From Sphaerisporangium perillae (GTDB taxonomy: Bacteria > Actinomycetota > Actinomycetes > Streptosporangiales > Streptosporangiaceae), in contig NZ_JALLPO010000001.1 in NCBI RefSeq assembly GCF_023276435.1, forward strand, positions 1 to 64,000: a stretch of DNA of 64,000 nucleotides, in the 5' to 3' direction. This document shows positions 1 to 7,977 of this stretch, piece after piece. Position numbers and translations under genes: made by a program. Position 1 is the stretch's first letter. Each line of letters starts with the position of its first letter. The notes under the pieces are model-generated. The model was not told the DNA's origin. It saw only the letters and a list, made by a program, of their open reading frames with translations, and made no database searches.

Positions 1-169
1 TCCAGAAGTCGGTGATCTTGTTGGCCTCGGAGGAGGAGGCCAGCGACACGGTCTTCTTGACCGGGGCGGTCGCGGCGTTGGCCGAGGTGACCAGGGTGGC
101 ACCGATCATGCTGGTGGCGGCGATGGCCCCACCGAGCGGGAGAACGAGACGCTTGACTCGGGTGTTCAA
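1..169 (-). CDS. Secreted S1-type peptidase paralogue, N-terminal part only (runs off window start)
   Basis: Only the first 56 codons are in the window. They read as a signal peptide (basic NTRVKR, then a hydrophobic LVLPLGGAIAATSMIGATL core and an A-N-A cleavage site) followed by a short pro-region ending in ITDFW. This matches the start of the gene at 2135-3631 almost residue for residue (NTRAKRLILPLGGALIATGMIGATL) and the 'W-T-P' pro-region of the gene at 744-1940, so it is inferred to be a third tandem copy. The start is TTG at 169; an AAGGAG Shine-Dalgarno at 175-180 sits 5 bases before it, which decides the start. The catalytic part is outside the window, so activity cannot be judged. 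Confidence 0.75.
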   Translation of the reverse strand, partial: MNTRVKRLVLPLGGAIAATSMIGATLVTSANAATAPVKKTVSLASSSEANKITDFW

Positions 170-445
170 GGAAACTCCTTGGGCTGGCGTGGAACGCATC
201 TTGCGCCCCATGCGTCAGTAAAGGGAATGCCATGAACATACAGAGGAGATCTTGTTCGCGGTAACCAAGAACGCGGGCATTTTTGGGGATCCGTCCCCGC
301 GTGATCATTCTGTGACCGCCCTGTCGGCGCACATCTGCCGTCAAGATGGCGCAAATCGCCATCATCTGCGCAGCTCACGGCACAGGTGAGGCCAGTGGTA
401 CAGGTGTGACGAGCGTCAACCGATCGGCGACTCGAGGGCAGCCTG

Positions 446-461
446 TGTGACGCAGATCACA
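446..461. promoter_or_regulatory. CRP/FNR-type palindrome TGTGA-N6-TCACA
   Basis: TGTGACGCAGATCACA is an exact TGTGA-N6-TCACA match, the classic CRP consensus, lying about 275 bases upstream of the TTG start of the partial peptidase gene. No other gene reads away from it. It sits in a 574-base stretch (170-743) that holds no gene: the near end is the leader of the partial peptidase gene and the far end the terminator of the next gene. Binding by a Crp homologue is inference; a 10-bp match can occur by chance. Confidence 0.4.
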
Positions 462-687
462 CTGATTGCAGGGAGCCAAACGGGCGCATGGCTACGTCTA
501 ACGGCCTCGCAGCTACCGTTAATCCGGCAAATCGGACACGCGGACGAGGGGGCGAAGCCTGGAACGGGGCAACTTCGGGAAGCCTTCCGGCGGGAACGGG
601 CCAAATCGCGAAGGTTGTCGCCAGACCGTGTCCGCGTACTTACGAGGGGCCCCGGTGTCGCAGCGCCAGGAGGTTCGGTGCAATGCC

Positions 688-718
688 AGAGGGGCCCGGC
701 ATCGCGCCGGGCCCCTCT
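688..718 (-). terminator. GC-rich hairpin terminator downstream of the 744-1940 peptidase gene
   Basis: A 12-bp perfect stem (AGAGGGGCCCGG with CCGGGCCCCTCT) with a 7-base loop starts 26 bases after the stop codon of the peptidase gene. There is no T-run, as is common for actinomycete terminators. Confidence 0.7.
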
Positions 719-743
719 CGGACATACAGGTTCTAGCGCCGGC

Positions 744-1940
744 TCAACCGGTCTTCTGCCGGGCCGCGTAGGAGTACACGAGATAGGTCGCCGTGTTGAA
801 ATACGGAGACGACACACCGTCGTAGCGGCCGTCGCCGTCCAGGTCCCAGGTAATGCTGTTCACGCCGTTGAGGTAACCGATGCGGCGCGACTGGCTGTAC
901 TTGATCACCCAAGGACCGCCGCTGGCTCCGGCCGTGAACGCGCATCCCCTGAAGAGCACGCCGCCGTCCAGCTCCCACTTCGGCGTGGAGATCTTCTTGG
1001 TGGCGCGGTTCAGGCACGACTCCATCGTCCGGCCGGTGTACGGACGGGTGCCGTCGGGGTGCGGGCCGGCCGGGTAGCCGAAGGCGTACGCGGCGACGGT
1101 GTAGCCCCTGTTCCAGGCGAAGCCCTGGCCGCCGACCTGGCTCTCCAGCCGCCCGGTGTCGACGGTCTTGTAGACCGGCTCGCCCTTGGCGTCCTTCTTG
1201 GGGGTGCCGTTCGCGTCCTTGTCGGCTTCCCAGCGGTAGCCCCGATGGACGGTGACGAAGGCGTAGTCGTAGTCGAAGTCGCCGGTCGCGGCGTAGGTCT
1301 CGTGGAGGTTCAGCGTGTCCCCGACGTAGATGCCGTACGGTGTCGCGCCGTCGCTGGCATAGGAAGGGATGAAGATCCAGTACTGGACGGGCTTGCCGTT
1401 CCTGACGTCGTACGCGCAGTGCCCGGCGGTGGCGACGACGTTGCCGTACTTCGAGTGCACGGACGAGGCGGAGCACCAGTACTCGGACTCGCCGTTGCGG
1501 AAGAACACCTTGCCCACCGTCAACGGCAGGTTCACGTTCTTGGAATTCACCGTCTTCGGGGCCGTCTTCGGCGGGATCACACCCGTGAGGGCGGTCGTCT
1601 TGCTGTTCGGGCTCTTGGTCGTGCTGCCGGCCTTGGTCGCGGCGGGTGCTACGGCGGCGGCGGTGCTGCTGGAGCTGGCGCTGGAAGTCCCGTCGGCGCC
1701 CGCGGCGGCGGTCTGCGGCGCGTAGCTGCTGGCGTGCTTCAGCCGCTCGGGCGTCCACCAGTCGACGACCTTCTGCATGTCCACGTCGCTCTGCGCCAGG
1801 GGAACGGACGTGATGCCCGCAGGCGCGGTGCGGGTTTCCGCATGCGCTCCGACGGACCCCGGGCCCGCGGAGAGGACCACACTCGCGGTCGCTAGGGCGC
1901 CGCAGAATGTGAGCGCGAACCGCTTCGCTCGGGGTGGCAT
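744..1940 (-). CDS. Secreted trypsin-like (S1/V8-type) serine peptidase
   Basis: 398 residues. The N-terminus is a signal peptide (about 1-33), followed by a low-complexity Ala/Ser/Thr pro-region (about 35-130) and a chymotrypsin-fold domain. The triad is visible: His174 in TAGHC, Asp225 in DYDYAF and Ser340 in GASGGP; Cys156/Cys175 and Cys309/Cys333 are placed to form disulfides. A DLDGDGRYDG segment near residue 367 resembles a Ca-binding loop and is conserved in the neighbouring paralogue. It is expected to be a secreted endopeptidase made as a zymogen; substrate specificity cannot be read. The start is the ATG at 1940, preceded by GGAAGG. It is the middle of three tandem same-strand paralogues, each apparently with its own terminator, so they are probably separate transcription units. 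They lie beside a divergent protease-inhibitor gene. Confidence 0.85.
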   Translation of the reverse strand: MPPRAKRFALTFCGALATASVVLSAGPGSVGAHAETRTAPAGITSVPLAQSDVDMQKVVDWWTPERLKHASSYAPQTAAAGADGTSSASSSSTAAAVAPAATKAGSTTKSPNSKTTALTGVIPPKTAPKTVNSKNVNLPLTVGKVFFRNGESEYWCSASSVHSKYGNVVATAGHCAYDVRNGKPVQYWIFIPSYASDGATPYGIYVGDTLNLHETYAATGDFDYDYAFVTVHRGYRWEADKDANGTPKKDAKGEPVYKTVDTGRLESQVGGQGFAWNRGYTVAAYAFGYPAGPHPDGTRPYTGRTMESCLNRATKKISTPKWELDGGVLFRGCAFTAGASGGPWVIKYSQSRRIGYLNGVNSITWDLDGDGRYDGVSSPYFNTATYLVYSYAARQKTG

Positions 1941-2084
1941 TTCGTACCTTCCAGTGATGAGAAGTGAACGGACAACAGTGAAGGGCGATTTTTCCAGATC
2001 AACAGGCTGACGGCACTGTACTTGGCTGACCTGGAGTCACTTCGTTATGGGGGTGGTCGGTCGGGGGAGTGGACAGAGTGCGCC

Positions 2085-2119
2085 CGTAGGGGGCCGGATA
2101 TACGGCCCGGCCCCCTACG
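2085..2119 (-). terminator. Hairpin terminator downstream of the 2135-3631 gene
   Basis: A 12-bp perfect stem, CGTAGGGGGCCG pairing with CGGCCCCCTACG, with an 11-base loop. It begins 16 bases past the stop codon on the minus strand and separates this gene from the 744-1940 paralogue. Confidence 0.75.
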
Positions 2120-2134
2120 TTGCCCTGCCGGCCG

Positions 2135-3631
2135 TCAGCTGGTCGTAAGCTTCCCGGTCCACAGGTTGGCGGCGTACTTGTAGATGCCGTAGGTGTCGCT
2201 GTTGAAGTACGGCGTCGTGATGTGGTCGTAGCGGCCGTTGCCGTCGGTGTCGAGGGTGAGGCTCACGACACCGTTGAGGTAACCGGTGCGCTTCGCGCTC
2301 TTGTACTCGATCAGGAACGGACCGCCGGTCGCGCCCGGGGTGAAGGCGCACTTGATGGCGAGCTGCTCCTCGGCCTTGTACTTGGCCACGACGGGGGCGG
2401 CGGCCGTCTGGCCGTAGCACCACTTCATGGTCTCGCCGGTGTAGGCCTTGTTGCCGTCGAGGTGCGAGGCGGTGGGGTAGCCGAAGCTGAACTGCTTCGC
2501 CTTCGTGCTCCGGTTCCAGGTGAAGCCCTGGCCACCGACGTTATCGCCAAGACGGCCAAGGCTGGTGAAGGTCTTCACGTAGAACTTCGTGATGTAGTAC
2601 TCGGCGTCGCTGCCCGGCTTGACCCACTGCTTCACGAAGAAGCGTGTGATGAGGAAGTTCCCTGCGGAGTCCCTGTAGGAAGTTCCCTTGCCGACGTACT
2701 TGGGATCGTTCGCCTGCGACTCTGTGACGTTCTCGGTGGTGGTGTACGCCTTGGCGCCAGACTTTTTGACGTCCTGGCCTTCGGCCTGGTCGTACTCGTC
2801 CTTGGTGACTTCCTTAGGAGCGAAGACGGCTCCCTTGTAGTCAGGACCGACGATCTCTTGAGCCACCGCCTCCTTGGTGTAACCGACACCGCCGTGGCCT
2901 AGCCAGTCGAGGTAGTCCGCTTTGGAGACCTTCGTGTCGACGGCGTACTTCTGTGCCTTGGACGCGTCGAAGGTCTTCTTGTCGACCTCCTTCTCGCCGG
3001 TCTGCTTGACACCGTCATACACGTTGACGAAGGCGTAGTCGTAGTCGTAGTCCTCGTAGACCGTGAAGTCATCGTGGAGGTTGACCTTCGAGCCGACGTA
3101 GACCCCCCACGGTGCTTTGCCCTGGTAATACCCAGGGATGAAGACGAAGTCGTCGACATACTTGTTTTTGTCGGTGTCGTAGACGCAGTGGCCGGCGGTG
3201 GCAACCAGGTTGCGGTACTTCGACTGCACCGAGGTGCCGGAACACCAGTACGGCTTGCCATCGACCTGGAAGAACACCTTGCCCACATTGGTGGGGAGAT
3301 TGACGTTCTTCGACTTGCCGGCGGACTGGCTTCCAGCGCCGGTCGGGGCGATCGAACCGGCCTTCCCGTCGGCTGAGGCCTTGCTGGTGCTCGTCCTCAG
3401 TTTCGCGGAGACCGAGGAGTCCTCGGCGTAGTGCTTCGCCGACTTGAGCTTGCCGGGTGTCCAGGACCCCGCGATGGCCTTCGCGTTGGTCCCGGAGGTC
3501 AGCGTGCCCGACTTCACAGGAGCCGGCTTCGCCTGCGCGCTGGCGGTGGTGGTGAGGGTCGCACCGATCATGCCGGTGGCGATGAGGGCACCACCGAGAG
3601 GGAGGATCAGGCGCTTTGCTCGGGTGTTCAT
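2135..3631 (-). CDS. Secreted S1-type peptidase homologue with Ser-to-Thr at the nucleophile and a ~120-residue insertion
   Basis: 498 residues, with signal peptide (1-34), pro-region (about 35-108) and peptidase-like domain. His148 (TAGHC) and Asp198 (DYDYAF) are kept, but the nucleophile motif reads GATGGP, with Thr435 where Ser is expected (codon ACC). The spacing from the catalytic Asp to the shared VGGQGF element is 167 residues here against 44 in the 744-1940 paralogue, so about 120 residues are inserted (roughly 210-355). The insert is rich in Lys, Asp and Tyr and was not recognised. The rest aligns well, including the C-terminal DTDGNGRYD loop. Strong AAGGAG 4 bases before the ATG fixes the start. 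It may be a pseudo-enzyme (decoy, scaffold or inhibitor sink) or a slow Thr peptidase; the sequence alone cannot say. Confidence 0.8.
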   Translation of the reverse strand: MNTRAKRLILPLGGALIATGMIGATLTTTASAQAKPAPVKSGTLTSGTNAKAIAGSWTPGKLKSAKHYAEDSSVSAKLRTSTSKASADGKAGSIAPTGAGSQSAGKSKNVNLPTNVGKVFFQVDGKPYWCSGTSVQSKYRNLVATAGHCVYDTDKNKYVDDFVFIPGYYQGKAPWGVYVGSKVNLHDDFTVYEDYDYDYAFVNVYDGVKQTGEKEVDKKTFDASKAQKYAVDTKVSKADYLDWLGHGGVGYTKEAVAQEIVGPDYKGAVFAPKEVTKDEYDQAEGQDVKKSGAKAYTTTENVTESQANDPKYVGKGTSYRDSAGNFLITRFFVKQWVKPGSDAEYYITKFYVKTFTSLGRLGDNVGGQGFTWNRSTKAKQFSFGYPTASHLDGNKAYTGETMKWCYGQTAAAPVVAKYKAEEQLAIKCAFTPGATGGPFLIEYKSAKRTGYLNGVVSLTLDTDGNGRYDHITTPYFNSDTYGIYKYAANLWTGKLTTS

Positions 3632-3920
3632 TGAGCTCCTTCTATGTCATGGGATGCCCGGGAAGGACCCATGCGTACGTAAAGAGACAACGGAGACCGT
3701 ACTCCGGCGATCTTGGCCATTGACCCCCAAACGGGACAAAACGACATCTCTGTTACCGGCTTGTTATGAAACCGGTGGAACCGGAGAGATACCTGATGCG
3801 TCGAATCTCGCTCTCGATCATGGGTCCGCCGGGCCCGCGATCCAGAGCCCGGCGCGTGATCGACGACCAAAGAGCGGGAGGACGACGACCGCCCACGCCA
3901 TGCGAAATCGGGGGATTCAC

Positions 3921-4613
3921 ATGCGACGTCTCATCAAGGGCCTGACCTGCGCTGCCCTGCTCCTCGGCACGGCCGCTGCCATGCCACCCACGCCCGCGGC
4001 CAGGGCCGACGCCGACGGAGGTGCGCCCGCCATCCCCCGCCCCCTCCCCGGAGCCCCGGGCGTCCCCTGGTTCCCGATCTTGGGCACAGACCGCTGGCAC
4101 CCGATCAGGGGAACCGGCCCCTGGAACCCGACCAGGGAAACCGGCCCCTGGAACCCGACCAGGGAAGCCGGCCCTTGGGTCTCCACCAAGGAGGGGAACT
4201 CCGGGACCTCCGCGAAGGAGGCCGGCTCCGAGAGCTCTGCCAAGGAGGCCGGCTCCAAGCGCTCCGCCAAGAGTGGTGACTCCTGGACCTCGGTCAAGGG
4301 GGTGAGCCGCGTCCTCCTGCTCACGATCGCGCACGGCGAATCGCCCACGCCCACAGATCGGGTCGCTCTCCTGCAGTGCTCCCCGCCCGGAGGCACGCAT
4401 TCGAAGGCGGCGGATGCCTGCAAGCAACTGGAACGCGTCTCGGCGAACCTCAACGACCTGAACGTGTCCCCCGACGCCAGGTGCACCAAGGAGTACGACC
4501 CGGTAACCGTCTACGGCGCCGGGCTGTGGGACAGCGGCCGCCTGTCCTACGAGCGAACCTTCGGCAACCGCTGCGAACTCCGCGCCACCACCGGAGCCGT
4601 CTTCGGCTTCTAA
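3921..4613 (+). CDS. Secreted SSI-family protease inhibitor with repeat-rich N-terminal extension
   Basis: 230 residues. Signal peptide (about 1-30), Pro/Gly-rich segment, eight 9-residue repeats (55-126), then an SSI domain (about 127-230). SSI hallmarks seen: LLLTIAHGES strand, GGTHSKAADAC, CTKEYDPV, LSYERTF and a C-terminal AVFGF, with four Cys for the two standard disulfides. Aligning with Streptomyces subtilisin inhibitor (CPM-VYDPV) puts Lys at P1 in CTK-EYDPV, which in characterised family members goes with trypsin inhibition. The start is the ATG at 3921 (GGGGGA just upstream); an in-frame ATG at 3900 would spoil the signal peptide. It is divergent from the peptidase genes across a 289-base intergenic region, so it plausibly restrains those enzymes. 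Confidence 0.85.
   Translation: MRRLIKGLTCAALLLGTAAAMPPTPAARADADGGAPAIPRPLPGAPGVPWFPILGTDRWHPIRGTGPWNPTRETGPWNPTREAGPWVSTKEGNSGTSAKEAGSESSAKEAGSKRSAKSGDSWTSVKGVSRVLLLTIAHGESPTPTDRVALLQCSPPGGTHSKAADACKQLERVSANLNDLNVSPDARCTKEYDPVTVYGAGLWDSGRLSYERTFGNRCELRATTGAVFGF
4083..4298 (+). repeat. Eight tandem 27-bp coding repeats in the SSI-family gene
   Basis: Eight in-frame 9-residue units, from GTDRWHPIR through GTGPWNPTR, ETGPWNPTR, EAGPWVSTK, EGNSGTSAK, EAGSESSAK and EAGSKRSAK to SGDSWTSVK. Each unit ends in Arg or Lys. The first four follow a G-P-W-N-P-T pattern and the last four an S-x-x-S-A-K pattern. Basic residues at a fixed period would offer trypsin-like cleavage sites. Confidence 0.8.
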
Positions 4614-4749
4614 CGCCGGTAAGCGTCTTGGACCGGTGGCTGGGGAAGCACTGCATGACCCGAAGCAGCATTCCCGAGGTTCCAGACGTGTGGCCAGGGG
4701 CGTGCCGGAGGTGCTTTTGGGTGATGTCCGGATGCCGGGTCCGATGTCA

Positions 4750-5097
4750 TTAGAGGCCGAAGTGGATGCGGAGGGCGGCGTCTAGTTTGGCGAGGGTAGA
4801 GGGGGAGAGGCTGCCGATGCGGGCGCCGAGTCGGTGTACGGCGACTGCTCGGAGTTGTTCGGCCTGGGCCTTGGAGTCGGTGGGAAGTCCGCATTCGTCG
4901 GCACGGAGCAACACTTGGAATGAGTAAATGCGGTCGACGTTGGAGGTGATGGGGACCACGGTCACCACGCCGCGTCCGTTACGGGTAGCGGCACGGTTGG
5001 CGGCGTCGTTGCTCACCAGAACGGCGGGACGGGTCTTGTTGGCCTCGGAGCCTTTCACCGGGTCGAAATCGACCCAGTAGAGATCACCGCGCCGCAT
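4750..5097 (-). CDS. mazF: MazF/PemK-family toxin (endoribonuclease)
   Basis: 115 residues, the normal family length. It begins RRGDLYWVDFDPVKGSEANKTRPAVLV, the typical MazF strand-loop-strand with the conserved TRPAVLVSND segment, then VVPITSN, and ends in a short helix. MazF proteins are sequence-specific endoribonucleases that arrest growth when free of antitoxin. The gene overlaps the upstream antitoxin by 14 bases, the usual antitoxin-first arrangement that couples translation. It is convergent with the SSI gene; the 136 bases between them hold no gene. Confidence 0.85.
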   Translation of the reverse strand: MRRGDLYWVDFDPVKGSEANKTRPAVLVSNDAANRAATRNGRGVVTVVPITSNVDRIYSFQVLLRADECGLPTDSKAQAEQLRAVAVHRLGARIGSLSPSTLAKLDAALRIHFGL

Positions 5098-7134: not shown

Positions 7135-7977
7135 TCACTCGCTGATGATGATGAGGGTGCCGAGGGGGAGGTGGGAGACGGCGTCCAGGCCGTCTTTGGG
7201 GAGGCGGACGCAGCCGTGGGAGACGGCCTGGCCGAAGATGCTCTTGTCGGGCCAGCCGTGCAGGCCGATGGTGCCCGGGCCGCCTTCGAAGGTCTGCAGC
7301 TTCTCCGAGTGCGCGCCGAGCGGCAGGATCACCGGGCTGTAGTCGACGCCGGACGGTGAGAGGGAGGCGAGCAGGAAGGTGCGGCCGACCGGGGTGGGCG
7401 TCTCCTTGGTGCCGATGCCCACCGGCCACGATCCCGTCTCCTGCCCGTCCTTGAGCACGGTGAGCCGCCGGGATGAGAGGTCGATGCGCACCTGGTAGGG
7501 GCTGCGGGTCTGCTTGGTCTTGCCGTCGCCGGTGTGGATCCAGCCGGTCGACCCGTTGGGCCTGCTGGGCAGGAGGACCCGCATCCAGTCCGGGCGGGCC
7601 TCGACCACGGGCAGCCAGGTGGGGGCGTCGAGCTGGGTGGCCGGGACCACCGCGATCGGCGCGCCGCCGGGGTCGGCGTACACGACCTTGGCGGCCTGCG
7701 GGTGCACTACGAGCCCGTCGTTGGCGGCAAAGGGCTGGGGATCGCGTTGCGCCTTGCGGATGGTGGTCCACGTCGTCGAGCGGGGGAGGGCGGCGAGCTG
7801 CTTCGCGGTCAGCTGCACCGGGGCGACTGGCTTGGCCGACGGGGCCGGCGGCGTGGCGAGCTCGCGGTCGAACTTCCAGTTGGTGAAGAGGACGAGTGTC
7901 GCCAAGCCGACCAGGACCGTGGCCGCCACCGCGGCGATGATGACAGTGGTACGAGTGGATCGACGGCGAACGTACAT
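7135..7977 (-). CDS. L,D-transpeptidase (YkuD family), membrane anchored
   Basis: 280 residues. A short basic N-terminus and one hydrophobic helix (about 10-30) anchor the protein outside the membrane. The C-terminal YkuD domain shows HGWPDKSIFG, followed by SHGCVRLP with catalytic Cys256. Such enzymes make 3-3 peptidoglycan cross-links or attach proteins to peptidoglycan. The residues between anchor and domain form a linker plus a strand-rich segment. It is convergent with the AraC gene (13 bases apart). The start ATG at 7977 gives a clean anchor. Confidence 0.85.
   Translation of the reverse strand: MYVRRRSTRTTVIIAAVAATVLVGLATLVLFTNWKFDRELATPPAPSAKPVAPVQLTAKQLAALPRSTTWTTIRKAQRDPQPFAANDGLVVHPQAAKVVYADPGGAPIAVVPATQLDAPTWLPVVEARPDWMRVLLPSRPNGSTGWIHTGDGKTKQTRSPYQVRIDLSSRRLTVLKDGQETGSWPVGIGTKETPTPVGRTFLLASLSPSGVDYSPVILPLGAHSEKLQTFEGGPGTIGLHGWPDKSIFGQAVSHGCVRLPKDGLDAVSHLPLGTLIIISE

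Follow-up and report, generated by a model that had tools for sequence, protein, structure and literature searches.

The first 4,613 nucleotides of a 64,000-nucleotide stretch of Sphaerisporangium perillae DNA (contig NZ_JALLPO010000001.1, assembly GCF_023276435.1), hereafter the window, hold a gene for a secreted inhibitor of the SSI family, placed head to head with an array of paralogous genes for secreted proteins of the S1 peptidase fold. Conserved adjacency of inhibitor and array, mixed active sites among the array proteins, retention of the catalytic His and Asp in members that have lost the nucleophilic Ser, purifying selection on the Ser-less pairs measured and a leader RNA common to Ser and Ser-less genes together suggest that the locus forms the head end of an extracellular proteolysis module specific to the family. 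In such a module, Ser proteases would be gated by the SSI protein, and non-cleaving paralogues would serve as cofactors or as binders of inhibitor or substrate. We advance this reading of the sequences tentatively, at a little short of an even chance.

An SSI gene faces an array of S1-fold genes

The original prediction read these nucleotides as three tandem secreted peptidase paralogues, each apparently with its own terminator, beside a divergent SSI-type gene. The reading frames at 744–1940 and 2135–3631 and the partial frame at 1–169, all on the minus strand, are confirmed, as is the inhibitor gene at 3921–4613 on the plus strand. The three minus-strand genes are indeed related, but the array is longer than three genes and its 498-residue member lacks the catalytic Ser. 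The features of the locus are as follows.

1–169, minus strand: array paralogue fragment of the long-insert type, 56 N-terminal codons (signal peptide region), TTG start at 169, cut by the contig end
162–273, minus strand: strong form of the 5′ leader RNA with a covarying hairpin, directly upstream of 1–169 (model R1, 109.4 bits, E 8.9e-30; the sequence belongs to training set A4)
688–718, minus strand: terminator-like hairpin 3′ of 744–1940 (fold z −5.4; no T-run)
744–1940, minus strand: second array gene, secreted S1 (AL20/Anisep-like) peptidase of 398 residues, triad H174–D225–S340 intact, Ala189/Phe190 by position count
921–923, minus strand: Ser340 codon AGC, predicted nucleophile (from sequence and alignment)
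1987–2000, minus strand: GATCTGGAAAAATC, upstream of the second gene, an element recurring upstream of other array members
2085–2119, minus strand: terminator-like hairpin 3′ of 2135–3631 (fold z −3.2; no T-run)
2135–3631, minus strand: head gene, secreted S1-fold protein of 498 residues with H148, D198 and Thr435 replacing Ser, and a long insert between Asp and Thr
2327–2329, minus strand: Thr435 codon ACC at the nucleophile position (from sequence and alignment)
3623–3734, minus strand: head-gene version of the leader with CATGGG...CCCATG arms, within the SSI–head intergenic region (model R1, 36.5 bits, E 9e-9, outside the training set; 10-genome alignment)
3632–3920, no strand: divergent intergenic region between head gene and SSI gene, near-invariant close to the head gene in 10 genomes and far less conserved on the SSI side
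3921–4613, plus strand: SSI-family (PF00720) secreted inhibitor of 230 residues, four Cys kept, with a repetitive, lineage-variable N-terminal extension
4488–4490, plus strand: P1 Lys codon of the reactive site (C-T-K-E-Y), from alignment to SSI chains

The window covers the opening 64 kb of contig C1 in a 9.3 Mb genome. Because it starts at the first base of C1, the gene at 1–169 is truncated; in G004, G006, G008 and G010, four other genomes of the genus, a long-insert gene occupies the equivalent position in the array.

The two complete array proteins are only weakly matched by the Pfam Trypsin profile (E 6e-4 and 1e-3, slightly short of the cut-off), and NCBIfam gives no peptidase match for them. 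The solved structures 3wy8 and 3cp7, the sole PDB relatives found by sequence, match them clearly, with phmmer E-values of 1e-19 to 4e-13 and profile E-values of 3e-22 to 2e-35. In the second gene product the match to 3wy8 covers 242 profile positions (E 2.1e-35), and H174, D225 and S340 stand in His–Asp–Ser order with the Ser in a G-x-S-G-G context. The head-gene product is equally a relative of 3wy8 (E 1.1e-19; profile E 1.4e-25), and its nucleophile position is held by Thr435, as in all 10 Sphaerisporangium orthologues; with Thr at this place it is unlikely to function as a serine peptidase. Despite 70–77% overall identity to its nine congeners, the window head protein has an insert (approximately residues 220–350) strongly unlike theirs, as if swapped by recombination between paralogues. 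Weak Pfam matches to DUF1439 (2 of 36) and VPg (1 of 36) among the array members of set A2 were taken as chance.

The inhibitor gene product matches PF00720 over residues 131–216 (E 3.5e-23; 81.8 bits, against a cut-off of 23.9), spanning profile positions 4–92 of 92. SSI proteins are secreted canonical inhibitors. Aligned to solved SSI chains, and in a further alignment of 16 sequences, the window protein shows the four cysteines around the reactive loop and the C-x-P1-P1′-Y-x-P pattern. With P1 where we take it to lie in SSI proteins, this residue is Lys and the reactive bond Lys–Glu. The inhibitor domain is preceded by an extension of roughly 100 N-terminal residues that contains imperfect repeats, and the linker is the most variable stretch among the aligned SSI proteins. 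Some Sphaerisporangium SSI genes (L063:3250-4137 and L045:10881-12323) encode long Gly-rich repeats N-terminal to the inhibitor domain; those of L063 are of collagen-like Gly-X-Y form.

Both complete array genes are followed by G+C-rich stems, of 13 pairs at approximately 688–718 and 14 pairs at approximately 2085–2119. They are more stable than expected from shuffled sequence (0 of 200 shuffles as stable for the former and 1 of 200 for the latter), so that the predicted hairpins are real; the T-run of a typical terminator is missing from both, which is why a consensus terminator scan lists neither. No hairpin comparable to these lies 3′ of the SSI gene (z −0.02).

The inhibitor gene stays beside the array

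Further array genes are found where contig C79 of this genome ends (L062). In the six Sphaerisporangium genomes with the array on a single contig (G002, G004, G006, G008, G009 and G010), the order is SSI, head gene, second gene, 1–3 long-insert genes and 1–2 short genes, with all array genes on one strand. Between 2 and 7 members were counted per locus, and four assemblies (those of the window, G001, G005 and G007) have a contig break within the array. Elsewhere in the window's genome, on contig C2, two more distant Ser-type family members stand in tandem (L066:4610-7045), with no SSI gene within that 12 kb stretch.

SSI matches occur in each of the 11 Sphaerisporangium genomes and total 29, one of which falls under the family cut-off. 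The head gene is present in 10 of these genomes, and in all 10 an SSI gene is its divergent neighbour. In the eleventh, G003, which lacks a head gene at E 1e-155, SSI faces the second gene across approximately 1.5 kb, and no head-gene remnant is seen in that gap. In 5 of the 11 genomes, the window's among them, there is no SSI match besides the array-adjacent gene.

In other genera, adjacency was counted at loci with at least two array members, with duplicates removed and g4 counted under Nonomuraea; the twelve loci omitted as duplicates are also absent from the family and array-mix counts below. An array gene has SSI as its divergent neighbour at 24 of 29 such loci outside Nonomuraea and at 6 of 25 within it. 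These SSI genes were sought with a profile made from 16 of the SSI sequences, and a Pfam search agreed for the covered genomes that were compared. In G013, G025 and G035 SSI is located away from the array. Conserved adjacency, which the original prediction had set beforehand as a check on which it should stand or fall, thus holds both in Sphaerisporangium and in most other loci outside Nonomuraea.

The genes on the far side of SSI belong to at least three sets, one in the window's genome, G002, G003 and G005, another in G001, G004, G007 and G010, and a third in G006 and G008; G009 shares its far side with none, and no far-side gene is common to all congeners. Since these sets differ within one genus, the pairing of SSI with the array is not blanket synteny. 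In the window, the gene just past SSI (4750–5097, minus strand) encodes a PemK/MazF-family toxin (PF02452, E 1.4e-27). A further frame at 7135–7977 (minus strand), read as a frame only with no search made, has an SHGCVR stretch that we take to be an L,D-transpeptidase motif.

Ser-less paralogues are numerous and look maintained

A family search gave 354 matches; 21 of under 300 residues were left out, and 328 of the remaining 333 have a readable nucleophile position. Ser holds this position in 177 and another residue in 151 (Asp 112, Thr 11, Leu 11, Ala 10, Asn 6 and Gly 1). The surroundings of the active site are kept in these Ser-less members. Both His and Asp are present in 149 of the 151 and the two glycines flanking the nucleophile in all 151. 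By group, the Asp proteins keep His in 112 of 112 and Asp in 111 of 112, and both residues are kept throughout the Ala (10 of 10) and Leu (11 of 11) groups.

A 328-tip FastTree tree, built without the nucleophile column, requires only 9 switches of state between Ser and not-Ser. After the change the clades are uniform: Thr is fixed in 10 of 10 Sphaerisporangium head-gene orthologues (head-gene relatives in other genera mostly have Ser), Ala in 7 of 7 and Leu in 11 of 11, and large Asp clades are likewise uniform. Rough pairwise ratios of non-synonymous to synonymous change (dN/dS) range from 0.17 to 0.51 in 8 Ser-less pairs, with 0.17–0.40 for the Thr head gene (four pairs), 0.21 and 0.26 for the Ala tail gene, and 0.26 and 0.51 for two Asp pairs. 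A value of 1.58 for the second gene (G006 against G008) was discarded as coming from out-of-frame coordinates. The Ser-less proteins therefore look old and maintained, not like decaying copies. Among arrays with at least four full-length members, 49 of 50 mix Ser and Ser-less proteins, the exception being L061. The 11 Leu homologues (L137–L145, L068 and L069) form a separate clade with GSLGSS or GALGSS at the nucleophile position; they are single genes in the stretches examined and keep His and Asp in all cases.

A leader RNA precedes array genes of both kinds

Many long-insert and head genes are immediately preceded by some 110 conserved bases that take in the ribosome-binding site and reach the start codon. 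Scoring of upstream regions, with start codons guessed by a simple rule, covered 294 of the 333 members, and a strict pattern finds the leader in 71 of these 294. By class, it precedes 16 of 36 long Ser genes, 9 of 11 long Thr genes and 38 of 64 long Asp genes.

The leader forms a stem of 8 pairs, in which 98.0% of cells are paired across 38 sequences; two pairs are changed on both sides, and many pairs are G–U. The stem beats shuffled and slid controls, which are themselves weakened by the relatedness of the sequences: the number of both-side changes was reached in 14 of 500 shuffles, and the other measures in 0 to 4. Because the aligned sequences were collected with a short pattern that itself demands TTTAC and ACGCATGG, a lack of variation at those letters carries no weight; the CACG, CAG and AAGGAG blocks, and the greater part of the stem, are not covered by the pattern. 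An alternative stem, GACGCAT/ATGCGTT, was rejected, with 83.5% of cells paired and no both-side change against the 98.0% and two covarying pairs of the preferred stem. Folded alone, the head-gene leader is not unusually stable (z +0.69).

A model of the leader was trained on the 38 sequences from array loci; matches on those are to be expected, and what informs is that matches elsewhere are absent. In the window's genome the model picks out 4 places, each 5′ of an array gene. Across 60 genomes it picks out 51 places, spread over 18 of the genomes and 8 genus groups. Fifty of the 51 directly precede an array-family gene, 49 of them by script and one, on contig C102 of G001, by hand; the latter place escaped the script only through its 400-base limit, since it is located within the open frame L070:2497-3300 of a family gene. 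The remaining place, G003:C58:1-104, is at a contig edge and so outside this check. Among the 60 genomes no leader copy was found away from the array gene family, in a model search that, when run on more than 40 genomes, applies stricter filters at which weak matches are lost. Rfam gives no match up to E 1 in window positions 1–5000. The element GATCTGGAAAAATC upstream of the second gene is a possible second regulatory site; its 8-mers recur in 54–56 of the 294 family upstream regions.

A proposed module and its alternatives

From established knowledge, all array proteins and the SSI protein are predicted to be Sec-exported, and the Ser members would cleave protein. Outside the cell SSI would keep the Ser-bearing array enzymes blocked, and its removal or an excess of enzyme over it would lift the block, on the model of Sti in the Streptomyces coelicolor cascade. 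The Ser-less members are presumably non-cleaving, given the absent nucleophile and, for Thr, the precedent of MamO. More conjecturally, they may retain the binding cleft and hold SSI or substrate uncut, because the active-site surroundings are kept. Their role could then be that of cofactors steering or activating the Ser-bearing members, in the way MamO acts on MamE. Alternatively or in addition, they could be sinks to which SSI binds without being consumed, whereby a threshold for release would be set. An elaboration that we consider improbable is a three-part switch, in which the dead copies would hold SSI until saturated and thereby give proteolysis a sharp threshold, with the leader RNA setting the ratio of dead to active copies post-transcriptionally.

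Several observations weigh against the module. Pocket positions counted from Ser195 give Ala189/Phe190 in the second gene product, not the Asp189 of trypsin-like specificity, and the P1 Lys of the window inhibitor is a misfit to this pocket because the trypsin rule expects Asp189. Among 40 second-gene loci with a scored P1, the 5 with Asp189 all have P1 Arg, and Gly189 occurs without Lys or Arg in 6 of 6. This association is carried by few clades: in a covariation test of P1 against the protein columns, column 189 ranks 31st and 49th of 310, with only 4 independent pairs, too few for significance. L120, which has Asp189 with P1 Met, is a counterexample outside that test, its reactive site having been missed by the pattern. 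We therefore rejected matched pockets as evidence, and the proposal in the original prediction that the inhibitor may be matched to the neighbouring enzymes gains no support, as no covariation of P1 with the pocket emerged beyond that due to kinship. Its broader idea of a self-contained secreted protease–inhibitor module keeps the conserved SSI adjacency in its favour, but one complete 'peptidase' has Thr at the nucleophile position and the match between inhibitor and neighbour is unsupported.

The leader and the distribution of SSI add to the difficulties. By the strict pattern the leader is found at 3 of 118 short Ser genes, at 0 of 7 short Ala genes and not at the second gene, and the model search finds no copy at the SSI gene. 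No P-domain, the portion of its special targets that Sti recognises, was found by Pfam in the two window proteins or in the 36 members of A2. SSI is missing at 19 of 25 Nonomuraea arrays (one of them, L129, is cut where SSI would lie) and at 5 of 29 others, and the array can therefore do without SSI in cis.

Within Nonomuraea (L101–L136), Asp189 second-gene proteins are common where SSI is absent (for example L113–L115, L119 and L124); they are probably one clade. Among the six Nonomuraea arrays with SSI, an Asp189 second gene is seen only in L120.

The misfit of P1 to the pocket, the lack of covariation beyond kinship and the SSI-less Nonomuraea arrays would all follow if SSI had other targets, such as subtilisins, metalloproteases or the proteases of competitors or hosts, and its place beside the array reflected only co-expression of secreted-nutrition or developmental genes, with no pairing inside the locus. 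The names of solved chains show that SSI relatives inhibit subtilisins and metalloproteases. A merely co-expressed inhibitor, however, need not remain beside one particular gene, and the adjacency has outlasted changes of the far-side genes and involves the sole SSI match of the genome in 5 of 11 cases. We regard this account as doubtful on balance, though a serious contender. Less likely is that the array is a nutritional exoprotease family grown by tandem duplication, with sub-functional or decaying copies whose mixed active sites have no regulatory meaning. Copy number does vary from locus to locus, and contigs end inside the array in four genomes, as tandem copies would cause; against this stand the uniformity of the Ser-less clades over many species under purifying selection, the presence of both kinds in nearly every array and the conservation of the leader over 8 genus groups.

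A switch of nucleophile from Ser to Asp is known in α/β hydrolases, and the Ser-less members might catalyse another reaction, as slow Thr peptidases or with an Asp nucleophile on a non-peptide substrate. The near-complete retention of His and Asp in the Asp group, the uniformity of its large clades and the invariant flanking glycines would fit such a reaction. The nucleophile-free Ala and Leu groups, however, retain His and Asp equally strictly, so that this retention needs no catalysis, and in the part of the MamO study drawn on here the protein is inactive and yet changes of its His and Asp disturb crystal maturation (PMC4794232). We consider another reaction very unlikely. These degrees of belief, that in the module included, overlap in part and do not sum to one.

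Comparison with known systems

Among the matches listed in a search of the open-access literature, the scope of which leaves subscription papers aside, no paper deals with this locus or with SSI genes adjacent to S1 arrays in Streptosporangiaceae. Relatives of each part are known, in the SSI family, the S1 fold and the pseudoproteases; a conserved inhibitor neighbour combined with a mixed array of intact and Ser-less paralogues and a private leader did not appear among those matches.

The nearest parallel on the inhibitor side is Sti, an SSI-family protein that keeps the extracellular protease cascade of Streptomyces coelicolor inactive; the section consulted names Streptosporangineae among the groups with sti-like genes and notes that the inhibitors diverge fast (PMC4255298). 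As there, a secreted SSI-family inhibitor occurs with secreted proteases in a mycelial actinomycete. Unlike the special targets of Sti, which carry P-domains, the scanned array proteins have none, and whereas that section describes no target gene beside sti, the inhibitor gene here stands head to head with an array of paralogues, Ser-less ones among them (PMC4255298).

On the pseudoprotease side, MamO is described as a pseudoprotease of the trypsin fold that has Thr in place of the nucleophile while His and Asp are present; it promotes proteolysis by MamE, an active relative encoded in the same genomic island (PMC4794232). The array resembles this pair in having a probable Thr pseudoprotease with His and Asp encoded near a relative with an intact triad. 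MamE and MamO differ in belonging to the HtrA family, in their magnetosome function and in metal binding, and the sections consulted mention no inhibitor gene; the array proteins are secreted and AL20/Anisep-like, and come in Asp, Ala and Leu forms too (PMC4794232). AL20 (3cp7) and Anisep (3wy8) themselves cluster by structure with subfamily S1E of S1, according to the part of PMC6524800 used here. The array proteins share their catalytic core and spacing. Unlike these single compact chains of 218–219 residues, the array proteins have N-terminal extensions, and many carry more than 100 extra residues between the Asp and the nucleophile position.

Insect clip-domain serine protease homologues act with serpins. 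Clostridioides difficile CspC is described, in the part of the source used, as a Ser-less protease relative with a regulatory role (PMC6636752). Both resemble the array in the loss of Ser and in a regulatory role, which for the array is a proposal, and the insects also have a dedicated inhibitor; the inhibitor type is unrelated, the protease families and organisms are others and the biology is different. In the portion seen of a survey of 91 prokaryotic genomes, serine protease homologues without catalytic residues numbered 42 of 966, in five families (PMC2605481). Ser-less bacterial relatives were thus known, but as a minority there, whereas here they make up 151 of 328 members of one family and occur in 49 of 50 arrays.

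Set beside these systems, a whole bacterial family carries Ser-less protease relatives next to intact paralogues and, in many genera, next to a protease inhibitor. The array offers candidate targets of SSI-type inhibitors outside Streptomyces, together with a leader RNA without an Rfam match, and is a compact soil-bacterial system for asking, with few purified proteins, what secreted pseudoproteases do and whether inhibitors are tuned by them.

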